IMG/VR virus record: IMGVR_UViG_3300025327_000008
Location: 1-38,865 of that record
From: a virus
DNA: 38,865 bases
Reading direction: 5' to 3' (one strand)
Below, piece by piece: positions 1 through 31,091 of this stretch. The position numbers and the translations under genes were made by a program. The notes below the pieces were generated by a model. The model worked only from the letters and a program-made list of their open reading frames with translations. It did no database searches and had not been told where the DNA came from. Every line of letters starts with the position of its first letter. Positions within the stretch are counted from its first letter, which is position 1.

Positions 1-92
1 GAGAGGGTCCCCAGACCCCCTCGGGAGGGTCTGGGGGTGGGTCCCGAGAGGGTCCCCAGACCCCCTCGGGAGGGTCTGGGGGTGGGTCCCGA
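1..92 (+). repeat. 45-bp tandem repeats, left-edge copies (candidate origin iterons)
   Basis: Two full 45-bp units (3-47 and 48-92) lie in frame in the initiator gene. Each unit contains a perfect 10-bp inverted repeat, CCCCAGACCC and GGGTCTGGGG, around an 8-base loop. A purine-rich tract of GACAGA hexamers follows at about 95-120. Iterons inside the linker of an initiator gene, beside a strand-asymmetric tract, is the layout of the lambda origin; that this is the origin here is inference. Confidence 0.85.
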
Positions 93-530
93 GTGACAGA
101 GACAGAGACAGAGACAGAGAAGAAAGAACAGCCCCTCGCGGGGCAGACCCTGGAAAGCGGGTCTGTCTGTGTCAATAAAAGTGAACACTTCACAAAGCAT
201 GTCGGGCAGTGGTGCGAAAAGATCAAGGCGGCCTGCGGGCAGATCGCGGGGCAGCCGGCTCAAAACGGCGCCAAAAAGTTCGACCCGTACAAGTGGGTGC
301 AGGCGCAGGTCAAGCAGCGCGGGCACCCGGGGGCCATCTGCGAAGCCATCTGCGGCATGGCCAAGTTGTGGACCGAGATCAAGGAGCCCTGGGCCTACGG
401 CCGGGCCGTGATGAAGACCATCAACGGCAACTGGCACGAAAAGGACGCCATTGCCATCCACGAGCAGCTCAAGTGCATGACGCCGGCAGAATTGACGGCG
501 ATCAGCCATGGGCTTTTCAAGAGCATTTGA
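3..530 (+). CDS. Replication initiator, C-terminal part (continues from the window's right end)
   Basis: This is the 3' part of a gene cut by the window edge. The frame is open from base 3 and first encodes two copies of a 15-residue repeat (EGPQTPSGGSGGGSR), then a Thr/Glu run (TETETETEKK), then a helical domain of about 110 aa. The last domain contains KFDPYKWVQAQVKQRGHPG and a basic/aromatic helix set (WTEIKEPWAYGRAVMKTING), which resembles the C-terminal parts of phage O-like or DnaD-like initiators that contact the helicase or its loader. A GTG at 93 could start a short protein, but no ribosome site precedes it, and the frame joins that of the gene at 38248. The late promoter follows the stop. 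Membership of the replication-protein class is inferred from domain plan and position. Confidence 0.75.
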   Translation, partial: EGPQTPSGGSGGGSREGPQTPSGGSGGGSRVTETETETEKKEQPLAGQTLESGSVCVNKSEHFTKHVGQWCEKIKAACGQIAGQPAQNGAKKFDPYKWVQAQVKQRGHPGAICEAICGMAKLWTEIKEPWAYGRAVMKTINGNWHEKDAIAIHEQLKCMTPAELTAISHGLFKSI

Positions 531-667
531 GGGGCGGATGATCCGGGGTCCATGACATGCATAAGCCAGCCAAGGCTGTTAGCTGCTGAAATTGCGATAG
601 ATTCCATGCATCAACGTGAATCAGACAGGAAGGCGGAGGGACCGGAAAGCTAATTTTTATGTTTTGC

Positions 668-682
668 ACACAATTTTTGTGT
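668..682. promoter_or_regulatory. Operator OL-late: 15-bp inverted repeat at the late promoter
   Basis: ACACAATTTTTGTGT, two 6-bp arms around TTT. It differs at one position from the repeat inside the early promoter (30188-30202). Its last base overlaps the first base of the -35 box TTGACA, so a bound repressor would hinder RNA polymerase. Binding by the phage repressor is inferred from the shared sequence. Confidence 0.7.
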
Positions 683-709
683 TGACACCCCCACAACCCC
701 TTGTGCTAA
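682..709 (+). promoter_or_regulatory. Putative late promoter
   Basis: Consensus -35 TTGACA at 682-687, a 16-base spacer, and a weak -10 TGCTAA at 704-709 with an upstream TG. It lies about 140 bases before the first packaging gene and points into the structural operon. The perfect -35 and the adjacent operator support it; the -10 box is poor, so an activator may help. Confidence 0.55.
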
Positions 710-851
710 AGCTGGCGAAAAAGCACCAGCCAGACCAGGACCGGATCGACAAGTTGCAAAGCGGATACCCCAGGTGGCGGGGGTGGACCGAGCGGAGCGC
801 CCCCGCATTACAACCTGAACCCTGAACCAGAAAGCGGACCGCACAACCGAC

Positions 852-1469
852 ATGGCCGGAATCATCGAGCGCAGAAAGCTTACCAAGTGGGTGCTGAGCC
901 TGTTCGAGGCCGGCAAGACCACGCGCGAGATCGAGTCCATACTCAACAATCCGGCGAACCTGAAAGAGGGCCAGGAACCCATCAGCCAGCCCACCATCGC
1001 CAGGTTTCTGCAACCCTACCGCGAGGCGCTGAACACGGAACGGCGCCAGGTCGTCAACAAGAGCTTCAGCGCGGACCTGGAAGCGCTGAACACCCTGATC
1101 GCGAGAAACCAGGCCATTGCTAACGGCTGGGACTGGGACGTTGCGACCAACGCGCCGCGCCGGCATCCTGACGGCACCTACGTCAAGCGCTCGTACAAAG
1201 TGGCCGAGCAGATCGCGGCCAGCAAGATCGCCATGCAGGCGATCATGAAAAAATTCGACTTCTTGCAGCCGACCGACGTGCGCATTTACGCCGAATTATC
1301 AGGCCCGGGCGGAACGCCGGTGCCGATTGCCGCAGGGCAAGAGGCCGTGGCGGCCCTGAGCGAAGAGTGTATCAACGCCAGGATCGAGGCGCTGGTCAAA
1401 CGCCTGGGGCTGAACCTGGAAGTTGCGCTGCAAAAAGTAAAACCGGCGGAGGCCCAGGATGCAGCCTGA
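852..1469 (+). CDS. Probable terminase small subunit / DNA-packaging protein
   Basis: 205 aa, first gene of the late operon and directly upstream of the large terminase, with which it overlaps by 11 bases. The N-terminus has a helix-turn-helix-like segment (LFEAGKTTREIESILNN ... SQPTIARFLQ, residues about 17-55), as expected of a small subunit that recognises the packaging site. The rest is helical and basic. The C-terminus ends in Ala/Glu/Pro-rich sequence. Identification rests on position, size and the HTH-like part; small terminases diverge strongly. No strong ribosome site precedes the ATG. Confidence 0.65.
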   Translation: MAGIIERRKLTKWVLSLFEAGKTTREIESILNNPANLKEGQEPISQPTIARFLQPYREALNTERRQVVNKSFSADLEALNTLIARNQAIANGWDWDVATNAPRRHPDGTYVKRSYKVAEQIAASKIAMQAIMKKFDFLQPTDVRIYAELSGPGGTPVPIAAGQEAVAALSEECINARIEALVKRLGLNLEVALQKVKPAEAQDAA

Positions 1470-2997
1470 TGGCCAGGTCCGCGCCGGTAATGACCCAGCA
1501 GCAGGTTGCATAGTGCGTGGCATTGCGGCCAAGCTGGAGCTGCTGGAGCTGCTGGAAGAGCGCTTCCGCCGGCAGCGGTACCACCAGATCAGCCGCTATT
1601 ACCCTGACCGCGGTCCGGTGCGCCGTGAGCTCTACAGCAAGCATCTGGAGTTTTTCCAGGCCGGAGCCGTCAACCGCGAGCGCTGCTTCATGGCGGCCAA
1701 CCGGGTTGGAAAGACCGAAGGGGCCGGCGGGTACGAAGGAGCGCACCACGCAATGGGTGATTATCCGGCCTGGTGGCAAGGACGCAGGTTCGACAGCCCA
1801 ACCATCGGCTGGGCCTGCGGAGATACCCTGCAAACGGTGCGCGACATCCTGCAACGCAAAACGCTGGGCCCCATCAACGACATCGGCAGCGGGCTGATCC
1901 CGCGCGATCTGATCTGCGGCACGCCCAAGCGCAGATCCGGCAATGTGCCGGATGTGATCGAACAGGTGCAGGTGCGCCACGTGAGCGGCGGGATCAGCAC
2001 GATCATCTTCAAGTCCTACGACCAGAAGCGCAAGGCCTTCCAGGGCACTGAGGTGGACTGGATTCTGCTGGACGAAGAACCGCCCCTGGACATCTACACC
2101 GAGTGCCTGCTGCGCACCACGGGCATCGAGGGCAGCCGGGATGCCGGCATTCTGATGCTCACCTTCACCCCGCTGATGGGTCTGTCCGAGGTCGTGTTGA
2201 CGTTTTTGCCCGGCGGCAAGATGGGCGATGCCCAGCAGGCCGGAAAATACGTGGTGCAGGCCGGCTGGGACGACGTGCCGCACCTGTCCGCAGCTGAAAA
2301 AGAAGAGCTATTGCGCCTGATGCCGGTGCATCAGCAAGACGCCCGCGCGCGCGGCATCCCGCAGCTGGGCGCCGGCGCGATCTACCCGATTGCCGAGCAG
2401 GACATCACGGTGGCGGACTTTGCGATTCCAAACTACTGGCCCAGGGTCTACGCCCTGGATGTGGGCTGGAACTGTACCGCGTCGCTGTGGGGTGCCTGGG
2501 ACCGCGAAAACGACGTTGTGTATCTGTACACCTGCTACAAGCGCGGCCAGGCCGAGCCCAGCGTGCACGTCGATGCCATCAAGGGCCGCGGCGCGTGGAT
2601 ACCCGGCGTGATTGACCCGGCGGCCAGGGGCCGGGGCCAGAAGGACGGAGAAAAGCTGCTCCAGATCTACCGCGACGAGCACGGCCTGAAGCTGACCGTG
2701 GCCAACAACAGCGTGGAAGCCGGCATTTACCAGGTCTGGATGCGCATGAGCACGGGCCGGCTGAAGATCTTCAAGAGCCTTGCGCCCTGGTTCGAGGAAT
2801 GGCGCATCTACCGGCGCGATGAAAAGGGCCAGGTGGTCAAGGCCAAGGATCACCTGATGGACGGCACGCGCTATCTGGTCATGTCCGGACTGGACGTGGC
2901 CAGAACGCCGATGCCGGAGGTGCTGCCCGATATGAACCTGGACTTGGCCAGCCTGCCGGGCTACGGCGGATTTGTGCGCGATATGCTGCGAGGATAA
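1459..2997 (+). CDS. Terminase large subunit (ATPase-nuclease)
   Basis: 512 aa motor that cuts and translocates phage DNA into proheads. Visible motifs: Walker A at about residues 79-87 (AANRVGKTEG), Walker B with the catalytic acid at about 199-207 (VDWILLDEE), and an RNase H-fold nuclease with Asp in YALDVGWN (about 334), GVIDPAARG (about 387) and KAKDHLMDG (about 464-468). Length is normal for the family. The start at 1459 lies inside the end of the small-subunit gene and is preceded by GGAGG with good spacing. The portal gene starts 3 bases after the stop. All three key acids of the nuclease look present, so it should be active. Confidence 0.93.
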   Translation: MQPDGQVRAGNDPAAGCIVRGIAAKLELLELLEERFRRQRYHQISRYYPDRGPVRRELYSKHLEFFQAGAVNRERCFMAANRVGKTEGAGGYEGAHHAMGDYPAWWQGRRFDSPTIGWACGDTLQTVRDILQRKTLGPINDIGSGLIPRDLICGTPKRRSGNVPDVIEQVQVRHVSGGISTIIFKSYDQKRKAFQGTEVDWILLDEEPPLDIYTECLLRTTGIEGSRDAGILMLTFTPLMGLSEVVLTFLPGGKMGDAQQAGKYVVQAGWDDVPHLSAAEKEELLRLMPVHQQDARARGIPQLGAGAIYPIAEQDITVADFAIPNYWPRVYALDVGWNCTASLWGAWDRENDVVYLYTCYKRGQAEPSVHVDAIKGRGAWIPGVIDPAARGRGQKDGEKLLQIYRDEHGLKLTVANNSVEAGIYQVWMRMSTGRLKIFKSLAPWFEEWRIYRRDEKGQVVKAKDHLMDGTRYLVMSGLDVARTPMPEVLPDMNLDLASLPGYGGFVRDMLRG

Positions 2998-3000
2998 GCG

Positions 3001-9718: not shown

Positions 9719-10723
9719 ATGAAGAACGTTAAACGAGTGCTGTTTGTTCTTGCGGCTTTGATGATCATCGCCGGTCCGCCCGTGCTCATGGTGTGGGCTG
9801 CCGATGTGTGGAACGAGACCACGCCGGCCGGCACTGAAGACCCGCGCCTGGGAGATGACCGCATCCGCGAGCTCAAGCGCGCGCTGCGCGAGCGCCTGGC
9901 CGAGGATCACCACTTCGAGGCCAGCGAGGGCACCCCTTACGGCAATGCAGGATCGCAGATCGGCCGGCACAAGCATGTGACATTGATCCAGCAGGCAGCG
10001 GACCGGTCCACGGCCGTCGATGAAATGGCCGTTTACAGCAAGGATGTTGCCGGGGCGCCGGAAGTATTTGTGCGCGGTCAGAGCAACGCAACGCCGGTGC
10101 AGATCACCACGGGCGGCGGAACCGCACAACTTATCACAGGCGGCACTCTGGTCGGGACCACCACCAACAGCGGCACGATTTCCGGCGGCACGATTTCCGG
10201 CGGCACTCTGGTCGGGACCACCACCAACAGCGGCACGATTTCCGGCGGCACTCTCAACCCTACGACGCTTCAGATCGGCGGAGTGACGCAAGCAAAGTCG
10301 GGAATTTTCGTATCTAACGGAAGTGGCAATCCTAATTTGTCCGACACGGCCTTGAATGTCGATAGCTTTGCCGAAACGACATGGACTACAGTTTCTACGG
10401 CTAACTGGTCTGCGCTAAACAGCGTGCAAAGCGGTGCGAATTGGATAAGGGTAAGGGTGCACTTGACGGGCACTAATGCTACATCGGCAGCTACGCTGTA
10501 TCTGAATGCAAGAAAATATGGAAGCGGCCAGGCAGCATCTGAGTCGAATTTAATCGCGGCGCTTGCGGCTTACCCAGATGCGAGCAACACCGCCCGTGCT
10601 CAATCTATATCCGAGCAAACAATCCCAGTTGATTCATCTAAAGCGTTTCAACTGTATTGGGAAGGCAATTTTGCGCTTACGAACGATATTCAAATGATCC
10701 TGATCGGATCCGGATACAACTAA
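9719..10723 (+). CDS. Tail-fibre-like protein with a signal-peptide-like N-terminus
   Basis: 334 aa from the ATG at 9719; an in-frame ATG at 9689 would add 10 residues and overlap the adaptor stop. The first 30 residues are a Lys-rich start and a hydrophobic stretch ending in AADVWNETTP, like a Sec signal. Next comes a segment (DPRLGDDRIRELKRALRERL, then DHHF) typical of phage fibre N-termini. Residues about 140-180 are Gly/Thr/Ser beta-repeats, including an exact 20-residue duplication. The last about 140 residues are richer in A+T and in Asn/Ser/Thr than the surroundings and probably form the receptor-binding tip. A signal peptide on a virion protein is odd. Confidence 0.65.
   Translation: MKNVKRVLFVLAALMIIAGPPVLMVWAADVWNETTPAGTEDPRLGDDRIRELKRALRERLAEDHHFEASEGTPYGNAGSQIGRHKHVTLIQQAADRSTAVDEMAVYSKDVAGAPEVFVRGQSNATPVQITTGGGTAQLITGGTLVGTTTNSGTISGGTISGGTLVGTTTNSGTISGGTLNPTTLQIGGVTQAKSGIFVSNGSGNPNLSDTALNVDSFAETTWTTVSTANWSALNSVQSGANWIRVRVHLTGTNATSAATLYLNARKYGSGQAASESNLIAALAAYPDASNTARAQSISEQTIPVDSSKAFQLYWEGNFALTNDIQMILIGSGYN
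10141..10251 (+). repeat. 60-bp direct repeat in the fibre gene
   Basis: Bases 10141-10191 recur exactly at 10201-10251, giving a 60-bp period and encoding the repeated block TLVGTTTNSGTISGGTISGG. Such in-frame repeats lengthen or shorten a fibre shaft by slippage or recombination. Confidence 0.9.
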
Positions 10724-26805: not shown

Positions 26806-27921
26806 TCAGATTCCCCTGCGGCGGTTGATCTGCTGGCGCAAAAGATCAAGATTCGTGTGCACGTAGATCCGGCTGGTGGTATCCGGGCGGCTGTGGCCCA
26901 GCAGCTGGGACACGCTCCGGGTGTCGGCGCCGGCGGCGATCAGATCGCTGGCAAAGGCATGCCGGAAATCATAGAGGCGCAGGCGCCGGGTGATGCCGGC
27001 CAACCTCTTGGCCGTAATGAAGGAGCGCTTGATCGAGCGGACCGGGCACCCCTTGTACAGGATCACCTGGGGTGGCCTGTCCTTTATGGTCTGGTCGACC
27101 AGGCACCAGCCGGACAGAGCGGCCTGCAGGTCATCGTGCAGGGGCAGCAGGCGGTATGCCGGGCCTCCCTTGCGGGCCGATCGGATCAGTATGGTACGGC
27201 CGTCAAGGTCCACATCGTGCCAGCAGATCCCGAACAGTTCGGCGCCCGGGCGCACGCCGCTATAATAGCTGATGGTCAGGGCGCGCCGGGCATGCTCGGG
27301 CAGATGCTCGAGGATGGCGCGGACCTCCGCGGGGCTGGGGGGCGTCATGCGCTCGTCATCCCGGCGCGGCTTTTTGTAGCCGGCCACGGGGTTGGCTGCG
27401 ATGTAGCCGCGCTGCGGATCTGCGGCCCAGTTCAATATGGCCTGGATGTCGGTGAGCTCGCGGTGGATCGTCGTGAGCTTGACGGTGCGCACCCGGCCCT
27501 CGCGGTCGATCGCGGGTATGCTGCGCTGTTTGCGGCGCGGGCCGATGCGGGTGACGACGCCCTTTTGCCTGCGCGCGGTGATGTACTGATCCAGGACCCG
27601 GGCGGTGATCTGGCTGGCCGGAATGTGGCCGAGCTCGGGCAGGATCACCGAGCGCAACTTGCCGTGCAAATTGTCGATGGAGGGCTTGGGCAGGTCGGCC
27701 ATGCGGGCCTTCAGATAGTGGTTGGCCAACTCGGCGAAGCTTGGGGACCCCTGATTCTGGGGTCCGTAAGCGCGCAGGGCGCCCGTTTCTTTGAGAGTGT
27801 CGTTGAGATCGTAGGCTTTTTTCTGCCCGTCCAGGCCCCGGCCGCAATGGGTCCAGATCTGCTTGCCGGTCGGGTCGCGGTGGACCACGTAATAGGCGCC
27901 GTGATTTTTTAGGACGGCCAT
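26806..27921 (-). CDS. int: Tyrosine-recombinase integrase
   Basis: 371 aa. An N-terminal DNA-binding part, SAM-like core-binding region (about 60-165) and catalytic domain. Active-site residues: Arg 224 (YSGVRPGAELF), Lys near 251, Arg 320 in YDFRHAFAS (with Tyr at the usual first His), His 343 (LLGHS) and nucleophile Tyr 353 (RIYVHTN). It faces the late operon and ends 86 bases from attP. A good site (AAGGGG) precedes the ATG. No separate excisionase is recognisable; one may lie among the unassigned small genes. Confidence 0.93.
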   Translation of the reverse strand: MAVLKNHGAYYVVHRDPTGKQIWTHCGRGLDGQKKAYDLNDTLKETGALRAYGPQNQGSPSFAELANHYLKARMADLPKPSIDNLHGKLRSVILPELGHIPASQITARVLDQYITARRQKGVVTRIGPRRKQRSIPAIDREGRVRTVKLTTIHRELTDIQAILNWAADPQRGYIAANPVAGYKKPRRDDERMTPPSPAEVRAILEHLPEHARRALTISYYSGVRPGAELFGICWHDVDLDGRTILIRSARKGGPAYRLLPLHDDLQAALSGWCLVDQTIKDRPPQVILYKGCPVRSIKRSFITAKRLAGITRRLRLYDFRHAFASDLIAAGADTRSVSQLLGHSRPDTTSRIYVHTNLDLLRQQINRRRGI

Positions 27922-29612: not shown

Positions 29613-30125
29613 TTAAGATCCTGTTTTGCGTCGGTCCACCCCTTCAGGAATTGTTTCTGGTTGATCCACCTGCCTGCGTTCCGGCAGCACCATTCTATCG
29701 GCGGCCCGGCGCAGGCCCTCGGCTTTGCCGTGCAACCGGTAGACCTCGGCCAGGAATTCTTGGCCGTCCAGGGCTTCGATGTCGCTTAAGGCGATATTTG
29801 CTTTAATGGCCAACTCTGTCTTGCGAAATCTTTTCACCACATCAATGTGCTTCATTAAGAGCACATTCCTGCCGGATGATAATTGCGTCTGTGAAAGTTC
29901 CGGTTCCTGATCTTGCATTAAAGGCGGGCCTTCTCCGGTGAGCAGCCAACCAGGGGAAAAGCCGAATCGCGCAACGAGCCCCTCGAGAACCACACCCTTT
30001 AGGTCTCCATCACATTTTTTGTATGCAGCGATAGTATTTTTATGGACGCCAAGGCTTTCGGCAAGGATATCATTGTTTTTGCCAATGCTCTTCAGAGCCC
30101 AAGCCACTCTTTCGGCTAAATTCAT
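29613..30125 (-). CDS. Immunity repressor (CI-like, no peptidase domain)
   Basis: 170 aa. The N-terminus is a helix-turn-helix (ALKSIGKNNDILAESLGVHK, then NTIAAYKKCDGDL), and FGFSPGWLLTGEGPP is the usual following motif of phage CI repressors. There is no Ser-Lys peptidase, so LexA/RecA-type self-cleavage is not expected; the C-terminal helix may dimerise. AAGG precedes the ATG. A weak leftward promoter (AATAAT near 30157-30162) may drive it. The operator at 30188 lies between it and the early promoter, and a degenerate copy sits within its own gene. Confidence 0.8.
   Translation of the reverse strand: MNLAERVAWALKSIGKNNDILAESLGVHKNTIAAYKKCDGDLKGVVLEGLVARFGFSPGWLLTGEGPPLMQDQEPELSQTQLSSGRNVLLMKHIDVVKRFRKTELAIKANIALSDIEALDGQEFLAEVYRLHGKAEGLRRAADRMVLPERRQVDQPETIPEGVDRRKTGS
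30010..30024. promoter_or_regulatory. Degenerate operator inside the repressor gene
   Basis: TCACATTTTTTGTAT matches the early operator at 13 of 15 positions. It lies about 100 bases into the repressor coding region, where it encodes Ala-Tyr-Lys-Lys-Cys-Asp. It may be an auxiliary site for autoregulation or looping, or chance in a short AT-rich stretch. Confidence 0.35.
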
Positions 30126-30180: not shown

Positions 30181-30209
30181 TTGACATACACATTTTTTGT
30201 GTCTACTAA
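30181..30209 (+). promoter_or_regulatory. Early rightward promoter (PR)
   Basis: TTGACA at 30181-30186, a 17-base spacer and TACTAA at 30204-30209. It points to the Cro-like gene, leaving a leader of about 75 bases. The operator lies wholly within the spacer, the classical arrangement for direct repression. Confidence 0.8.
30188..30202. promoter_or_regulatory. Operator at the early promoter
   Basis: ACACATTTTTTGTGT, a near-perfect inverted repeat between -35 and -10. Almost identical to the site at 668-682, so both promoters are likely to answer to one regulator. Confidence 0.75.
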
Positions 30210-30291
30210 TGACCAAACAATGGTTCAAACAAAAGACGCAAGAACAAGAATTAGCTAAATAAATTCTATTATTTATCCAATTCAAGGCATC

Positions 30292-30630
30292 ATGTCAATT
30301 AAACAATTGCCACAAACCAACACCACCAACCACACTACCATGCTCTTCCTGCGGGCCAACGGCTATCCGATCTGGAGCATCCGCAACGCCCTGGTGGTGC
30401 TGGCCGGAATGAAACACGACCAGATCGCCCAAAGCATCGGCAAGAGCCGCAGCGCCGTCACCAACGCCATCAATATGGCCCTGGGAGGAGACGACACGCT
30501 GCGAGCCATCGCCCGCATGCTGCAAGTCCCGGTGGAAGAACTATTTGCCGACAACCGACGCTTTGCCGCAGGTCAGGCCTGCGCACCAGAGGAGCAGGGT
30601 AGCAAAAGCGGCGCAGCGGGAGAAGTATAA
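30292..30630 (+). CDS. Cro-like HTH regulator
   Basis: 112 aa, first gene from the early promoter. A helix-turn-helix lies at about residues 38-80 (MKHDQIAQSIGKSRSAVTNA, then RMLQVPVEELF). The position opposite the repressor and the small size fit Cro, which shuts the repressor promoter during lytic growth. The N-terminal 20 residues are Thr/Asn-rich and may not be translated; an ATG at 30340 is an alternative start. Confidence 0.7.
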   Translation: MSIKQLPQTNTTNHTTMLFLRANGYPIWSIRNALVVLAGMKHDQIAQSIGKSRSAVTNAINMALGGDDTLRAIARMLQVPVEELFADNRRFAAGQACAPEEQGSKSGAAGEV

Positions 30631-30635
30631 AATCG

Positions 30636-31091
30636 ATGAAAAAGTCTAATCAAATGGACACTATAGAGGTAGTCGCCGGCTACGCCAAGGGCAATGAAGA
30701 CAAGATGCGCGTGGTGGCCGACCGCATGGGCCTGCCCTACTCCACCCTGATGCGCAAGCTCAACCCCTTCGATGCCTACCAGATCAACGCCACCGAAATC
30801 ATTCCGCTGGTGCTGGCCACGGAGAACTTATCCCTGATCGAGCACTACTGCCAGCGCATGAACATCCTGGCCGTGCCCATGGGCCGTATAGAATCCACTT
30901 GCTTTGACCTTTCGGCCGTGGCGCGCTTTGCCCGTGAGGCCGGCGAGGCCATGAGCGAGATGAGCGCCGCGCTGCTGGATCGGCACGTGTCGGGCAAGGA
31001 GGCGCATGCCTGCAAGAAGGAATTGATGGACCTGGTGCAGTGCGCATGGGCGCTGCTCAAGCGCCTAGAAACAGAGAACCACCATGAATAG
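30636..31091 (+). CDS. CII-like regulator (CP76 family)
   Basis: 151 aa. The N-terminal pattern YSTLMRKLNPFDAYQINATE (about 35-54) followed by IIPLVLATENLSLIEHYCQR is that of the phage regulatory CII family CP76. The remainder is a helical tail. Second gene of the early operon, it may promote lysogeny as CII does, though target sites are not seen. Confidence 0.75.
   Translation: MKKSNQMDTIEVVAGYAKGNEDKMRVVADRMGLPYSTLMRKLNPFDAYQINATEIIPLVLATENLSLIEHYCQRMNILAVPMGRIESTCFDLSAVARFAREAGEAMSEMSAALLDRHVSGKEAHACKKELMDLVQCAWALLKRLETENHHE

Follow-up and report, generated by a model that had tools for sequence, protein, structure and literature searches.

How does a temperate phage keep its terminase genes silent in the lysogen? 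In most temperate phages whose map resembles that of lambda, late genes are assumed to be silenced only indirectly, through the withholding of Q. The record IMGVR_UViG_3300025327_000008, a temperate phage in IMG/VR of 38,865 nt which was analyzed at full length and is termed here the window, raises the question whether the switch protein can also act on the late promoter itself. A preliminary description had pointed to a 15-bp inverted repeat lying against the −35 box of the promoter ahead of terminase and differing by one base from a repeat in the early promoter spacer, some 9 kb away on the circle, and from this it had proposed that the repressor silences the late genes directly. Here we re-examine the two sites, their promoters, the probability of such a pair by chance, and the readings that compete with direct repression.

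The Phage Genome and its Probable Circular Map

The early genes of the phage reach 38237, and terminase, portal and other late genes are found from 852 on (Table 1). Both contig ends fall within one 45-bp tandem repeat (38708-38865 and 1-93) that is coding, with 15 residues per unit (EGPQTPSGGSGGGSR units) and the same frame at both ends. We infer a circular join of the contig ends, which the in-frame array supports, the array itself not being spanned by one sequence. Read across this join, the DnaD-like frame passes through the array and ends at 530, so that no gene would lie between the DnaD-like gene and the late promoter. The 45-bp repeat also holds an inverted repeat and, sitting in frame inside the DnaD-like gene, it looks like an iteron-type origin within an initiator gene, an arrangement seen in lambda O. 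Both the contig and an identical fragment (G001) break in this array.

Table 1. Coordinates of the features discussed; operator and promoter assignments are candidates read from the sequence.
Feature	Position	Strand	Remarks
Late operator candidate ACACAATTTTTGTGT	668..682	.	6-3-6 inverted repeat without mismatch; centre at 675 (about −42)
Putative late promoter, −35	682..687	+	consensus TTGACA; overlaps operator candidate by one base
Second dyad CACAA-CCCC-TTGTG	692..705	.	between late −35 and −10; centre 698.5
Putative late promoter, weak −10 GCTAAA	705..710	+	3/6 to consensus; 17-bp spacer; TGn before
TerS-position gene	852..1469	+	first after late promoter; label by position; no family match (Pfam, PHROGs)
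Terminase large subunit (TerL)	1459..2997	+	PF03237 E=2.1e-18; phrog_2 E=1.3e-24
Integrase	26806-27921	−	
Immunity-repressor candidate	29613..30125	−	170 aa; N-terminal HTH; PHROGs phrog_2328 E=1.4e-9, phrog_8 E=3e-8
Weaker third copy TCACATTTTTTGTAT	30010..30024	.	2 mismatches from early site; inside repressor gene
Putative early promoter TTGACA-17-TACTAA	30181..30209	+	ahead of Cro-like gene; −35 30181-30186, −10 30204-30209
Early operator candidate ACACATTTTTTGTGT	30188..30202	.	centre 30195, about −21
Cro-like HTH protein	30292..30630	+	112 aa; early operon gene 1; PHROGs phrog_7241 E=4e-4
CII-like regulator	30636..31091	+	Phage_CP76 family; PF06892 E=1.5e-18; phrog_101 E=1.9e-13
DnaD-like helicase loader, first part	38248..38865	+	phrog_1701 E=2.7e-21

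A search for a peptidase domain in the repressor candidate found none, and the protein had no Pfam match at E up to 0.001; the Cro-like protein matched Pfam HTH_3 at E=9e-4, below the cut-off. Single-sequence structure predictions of the two proteins were too poor for use (mean pLDDT of 39.8 and 47.3, respectively), and a search of solved structures gave nothing useful. Elsewhere in the early region, a radical SAM gene (33804-34574, PF04055) adjoins a phrog_997 “replication terminator” protein (34561-34917), and a nucleoside deoxyribosyltransferase-like protein is followed by adenine and cytosine DNA methyltransferases (36075-38237). The late region carries two copies of a 60-bp repeat (10139-10251).

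Two Near-Identical Inverted Repeats and their Putative Promoters

The late site ACACAATTTTTGTGT, with arms ACACAA and TTGTGT and 3 nt between them, is placed in the 321-bp gap ahead of the terminase genes. The window holds a single near copy of it, the early site ACACATTTTTTGTGT, at one mismatch, exactly as the preliminary description had it, and the centres of the two are 9,345 bp apart via the contig join, which agrees with the distance given there. The early site falls between the −35 and −10 boxes of the early promoter, next to the divergently oriented repressor gene. Immunity operators normally lie between divergent repressor and cro genes.

The late promoter itself, which we place at 682-710 on account of its hexamers, gives a mixed picture. 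A threshold scan of positions 1-3000 scored no promoter-like site (0.4 expected). With a looser, home-made matrix, by which 34,065 hexamer pairs on both strands of the window were scored, the late promoter ranked 33rd (spacer 19) and 52nd (spacer 17), and the early promoter ranked 13th and 16th. If transcription starts near 717, the late dyad would be centred at about −42 and overlap the −35 box, which corresponds to the position of a class II activator (−41.5 to −43.5); the centre of the early site, by a start likewise judged from the hexamers, would lie at about −21. Downstream of the late promoter, the leader holds a strong GC-rich hairpin (GCGGGGG/CCCCCGC, 776-807) without a U-run. The folding of this leader is barely better than that of shuffled sequences (z −1.77; 14 of 200 shuffles were as good), and an Rfam search of 400-1000 gave no match.

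A second dyad, absent from the preliminary description, lies between the −35 and −10 boxes of the late promoter. It has the same arms as the operator candidate with a gap one base longer (4, not 3), and its centre is 23.5 bp from that of the 668-682 site. For CACAA-CCCC-TTGTG with at most one mismatch, the dyad is the only match in the window, and the wider pattern CACAA-N0-8-TTGTG occurs only twice, at 669 and 692, both at the late promoter. The chance of any such match in a 200-bp local simulation is 0.005, for a pattern that was chosen after the sequence had been seen. For comparison, OR1-OR2 and OL1-OL2 of lambda are 24 bp apart by their annotated coordinates. Because of the altered gap, the same dimer may bind 692-705 badly or not at all.

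Around the early site, the third copy TCACATTTTTTGTAT inside the repressor gene may be due to chance, and can be compared with the CI site FL inside 186 cI. A minus-strand promoter-like site at 30248-30298 (TTGACA at 30298, with TAAATA/AATAAT 17-19 bp on) takes matrix ranks 4-8 of the 34,065 pairs and points toward the repressor gene. It overlaps both an inverted repeat (30248-30283) and the 5′ end of the Cro-like gene, and may be a repressor establishment promoter. Directly past the early −10 box lies a small dyad, ACCA-N5-TGGT (30212-30224), possibly a separate site for the Cro-like protein.

Is the Pair More than Chance?

The bare pattern ACACAANNNTTGTGT, with at most two mismatches, matches only the late and the early site in the window, yet at least two matches were also found in 14 of 100 dinucleotide shuffles, so this pattern is not itself the evidence. 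Palindromic pairs of comparable quality are not rare in simulations either: the window contains three against a mean of 1.17 in 120 block simulations, at least three being reached in 11 of the 120. The other two pairs, 9351/26386 and 13203/19426, are rich in GC, and neither regulatory gap contains them; it is by position alone that the present pair is special.

Position is where the numbers become small. For a sequence within one mismatch of the early site, whole-window Markov models of orders 1-4 predict 0.001-0.0015 occurrences per window, and a model that gives the entire window the composition of its AT-rich regions predicts 0.014-0.07. Within the 321-bp late gap the expectation falls to about 1.4e-5 to 1.5e-4. 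Given these estimates and the places of the two sites, there is good support for a single phage switch protein acting on both promoters, and to this extent the proposal of the preliminary description stands. It is plausible that the protein in question is the repressor and that the late promoter is silenced by it; 186 CI at pB and LexA at GIL01 P3 are precedents.

Relatives of the Switch Proteins and Pattern Searches

In IMG/VR we found no relative of the repressor, Cro-like or CII-like proteins. Against 50,697 phage records the repressor gave five weak HTH matches of 29-38% identity, and the Cro-like and CII-like proteins gave none; the CII-like protein and the repressor were also not found in 398 Pseudomonadota genomes, in searches run without a known positive. 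TerS has no relative except the identical fragment L002, which is of the same contig as L003/G001 and thus not independent evidence. Of the 30 window proteins used, none besides TerL itself was shared with the TerL relatives (tblastn with E up to 1e-3; the identical fragment G001 aside).

We also searched the TerL relatives for palindromes that occur both in the 1.5 kb ahead of TerL and elsewhere in the record, a procedure that recovers the pair of the window. Low-complexity or GC-rich chance-like pairs were seen in four of nine records and none in five, so that no comparable pair was obtained from this set. The set includes records given as partial or as fragments (G002, G004, G005, G007, and L017) and possibly one phage twice, as L017 and G006; it excludes G008, whose TerL is cut. 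As for the DNA patterns, the late one occurs in four IMG/VR stretches, one of which is the identical fragment, and the early one in 47, none of these loci encoding a relative of the three switch proteins; the surroundings of five early and three late matches showed no switch region like that of the window. Both patterns are therefore uninformative in IMG/VR, and the sites cannot be followed through evolution in the collections searched, which yielded no relatives of the switch proteins beyond the five weak HTH matches of the repressor.

Search for a Late Regulator

The early-region open reading frames covered by Pfam and PHROGs scans matched neither a Q-like family nor any other family of late regulators, and between the end of the DnaD-like frame (530) and 668, just before the late promoter, no open reading frame matching Q was found. 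As far as tested, the earlier statement that a Q-like antiterminator is not found holds. No plus-strand terminator-like site was detected in 1-3000, and a late activator of the B/Ogr family was matched by none of the early-region frames scanned, the late-region frames being covered in part. Several early frames match nothing of any kind, so a late regulator of another sort may be encoded among them.

Known Systems with a Similar Wiring

A few other viruses are known to be wired similarly. The record of phage 186 annotates CI sites at pR, at FL (inside cI) and at FR; two more are annotated at pB, from which the late activator B is expressed. A blind scan for palindrome pairs (15 bp, 1 mismatch) recovered three pairs in 186, two of them from annotated CI sites (pB/FR and FL/FR); thus such a signature can mark real repressor sites, including those of late control. 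The same scan returned no pairs in P22, in G003, G006, and G008, or in 14.5 kb of lambda, and one pair each in CV-1-33 and HP1 (the latter an A/T run). It gave 20 pairs in EBPR podovirus 1, the 14 listed being a 60-bp tandem array, and nine in phiC31, counted without comparison to its known sites. The scan alone is neither complete nor specific. Like 186, the window has candidate repressor sites at the early promoter, within the repressor gene or close to it, and at a promoter on which late expression would depend, and its CII-like protein belongs to Phage_CP76 (PF06892, E=1.5e-18), the family of 186 CII. In contrast to the window, the direct target of 186 CI is pB rather than the packaging operon; its operator (TTCAC-N5-GTGAA) and repressor are also unlike those of the window, where the repressor is without a Pfam match at the threshold used and no Ogr/B-like family was matched among the frames scanned.

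In the tectivirus GIL01, according to PMC6182141, LexA represses both the early promoter P1 and the late promoter P3, and gp6 activates P3 from a palindrome centred at −43.5 that overlaps the −35 box, which its authors call a typical class II location. The likeness of the P1/P3 system (LexA, gp7, gp6) to the window consists in one lysogeny repressor on early and late promoters and in a CACA/TGTG-armed palindrome overlapping the late −35. The differences are that the GIL01 repressor is the host LexA, that the −43.5 palindrome binds the activator gp6 and not the repressor, and that GIL01 belongs to another virus group, with no homology claimed. SP-beta MrpR with its SPBRE sites and the stoperators of Cluster A mycobacteriophages likewise provide phage repressor sites away from the early promoter, but the sites there are many and genome-wide, and the protein folds and site types are other ones. 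Further comparison literature comprises PMC10516654, PMC9262239, PMC7708051, PMC8053113, PMC7498355, PMC8201110, and PMC13123087.

Lambda and P22 share with the window the order of repressor, cro, cII, a replication initiator with internal repeats, and late genes, as well as sites about 24 bp apart. They differ in that their late control is by Q-type antitermination (Q/gp23), and in the empty palindrome-pair scans of P22 and of the lambda stretch.

Direct Repression or an Early-to-Late Switch?

The reading we favor, and hold to be somewhat better than an even bet, is that both 15-bp repeats are operators of one switch protein, likeliest the immunity repressor, which would silence the early and terminase promoters directly; possibly the Cro-like protein shares the two operators. 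At the early promoter a repressor dimer between the −35 and −10 boxes would block RNA polymerase, and at the late promoter a dimer on about −49 to −35 would overlap the −35 box, perhaps with a further, weaker dimer at 692-705 assisting it. The terminase operon would thus be shut directly in the lysogen, and loss of the repressor would free both promoters. Which protein binds, and that its binding represses, we infer.

Several lines of evidence favor direct repression: the early site occupies the usual place of an immunity operator, so close a copy in the late gap has the very low expectation given above, and the second dyad is offset by nearly the operator spacing of lambda. The lack of a Q-type family match among the frames scanned and of a plus-strand terminator-like site in 1-3000 points in the same direction, as do the precedents of 186 CI (at pR and pB) and LexA (at GIL01 P1 and P3). 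Since its −35 is a perfect consensus, the late promoter need not depend on an activator, and together with the second dyad in the spacer this makes repression the simpler reading there. On the other hand, direct repression is weakened by the poor late −10, where the threshold scan scored no promoter, by the 4-nt gap of the second dyad, and by the absence of switch-protein relatives from IMG/VR, which bars evolutionary tracking of the pairing between site and protein. If both promoters are freed together there would also be no delay of the late genes, unless something else adds one.

Neither is direct repression forced by the geometry, because an activator could use a site near −42 just as a repressor could. 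A lytic early protein, most simply the Cro-like one, might repress the early promoter and act from about −42 as a class II activator of the late one, taking the place of Q; we regard this as unlikely. It would supply the missing delay without Q, and would account for the differing geometries, in which a site at about −21 can only block. It would also explain the weak late −10, which is devoid of key consensus bases like that of many activated promoters, and GIL01 gp6 provides the example at P3 (PMC6182141). Against it stand the perfect TTGACA of the late −35, the putative nature of Cro-like binding to ACACA-N5-TGTGT, and the spacer dyad, which suits repression better. Class II promoters are usually without a perfect −35. 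In its strictest form, where one small early DNA-binding protein would use the same 15-bp site to repress in the early spacer and to activate at −42 of the terminase promoter, replacing Q antitermination despite the lambda-like map, the idea is slightly more doubtful.

It is improbable that the sites serve a host regulator or an unknown phage regulator distinct from both the repressor and the Cro-like protein. The sequence names no binder, and Cro-like, CII-like and uncharacterized early proteins are all candidates, but the early copy lies exactly where an immunity operator would be, and a weaker copy lies inside the repressor gene. Even less probable is a roadblock, in which the repressor at 668-682 would mainly keep early-operon transcription from running on into the late genes, in the manner of a stoperator, the hexamers of 682-710 being no real promoter. 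From the DnaD-like gene to TerS no plus-strand terminator-like site was found, so early transcription could continue; the late −10 is weak, and stoperators are known in Cluster A mycobacteriophages. Yet the early promoter would itself be repressed in the lysogen, the −35 is perfect and abuts the operator, and there is a single site instead of many along the genome. A chance resemblance of two AT-rich palindromes is the least probable reading, for although pairs of such quality arise about once per window in the block simulations and a 22-mer of the early promoter also occurs in three unrelated contigs (L048, L055, and L068), the conditional expectation in the late gap is minute and both sites touch consensus −35 boxes.

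Biological Meaning

Against the usual assumption that late genes under a lambda-like map are silenced through Q alone, the sequence of this phage suggests that a switch protein acts on the late promoter itself. Should it repress there, as we favor, direct control in the style of 186 and GIL01 would gain a further example, this one from an uncultured phage with switch proteins for which IMG/VR yielded no relatives. Should it activate, the same two sites would make up a very compact early-to-late switch.
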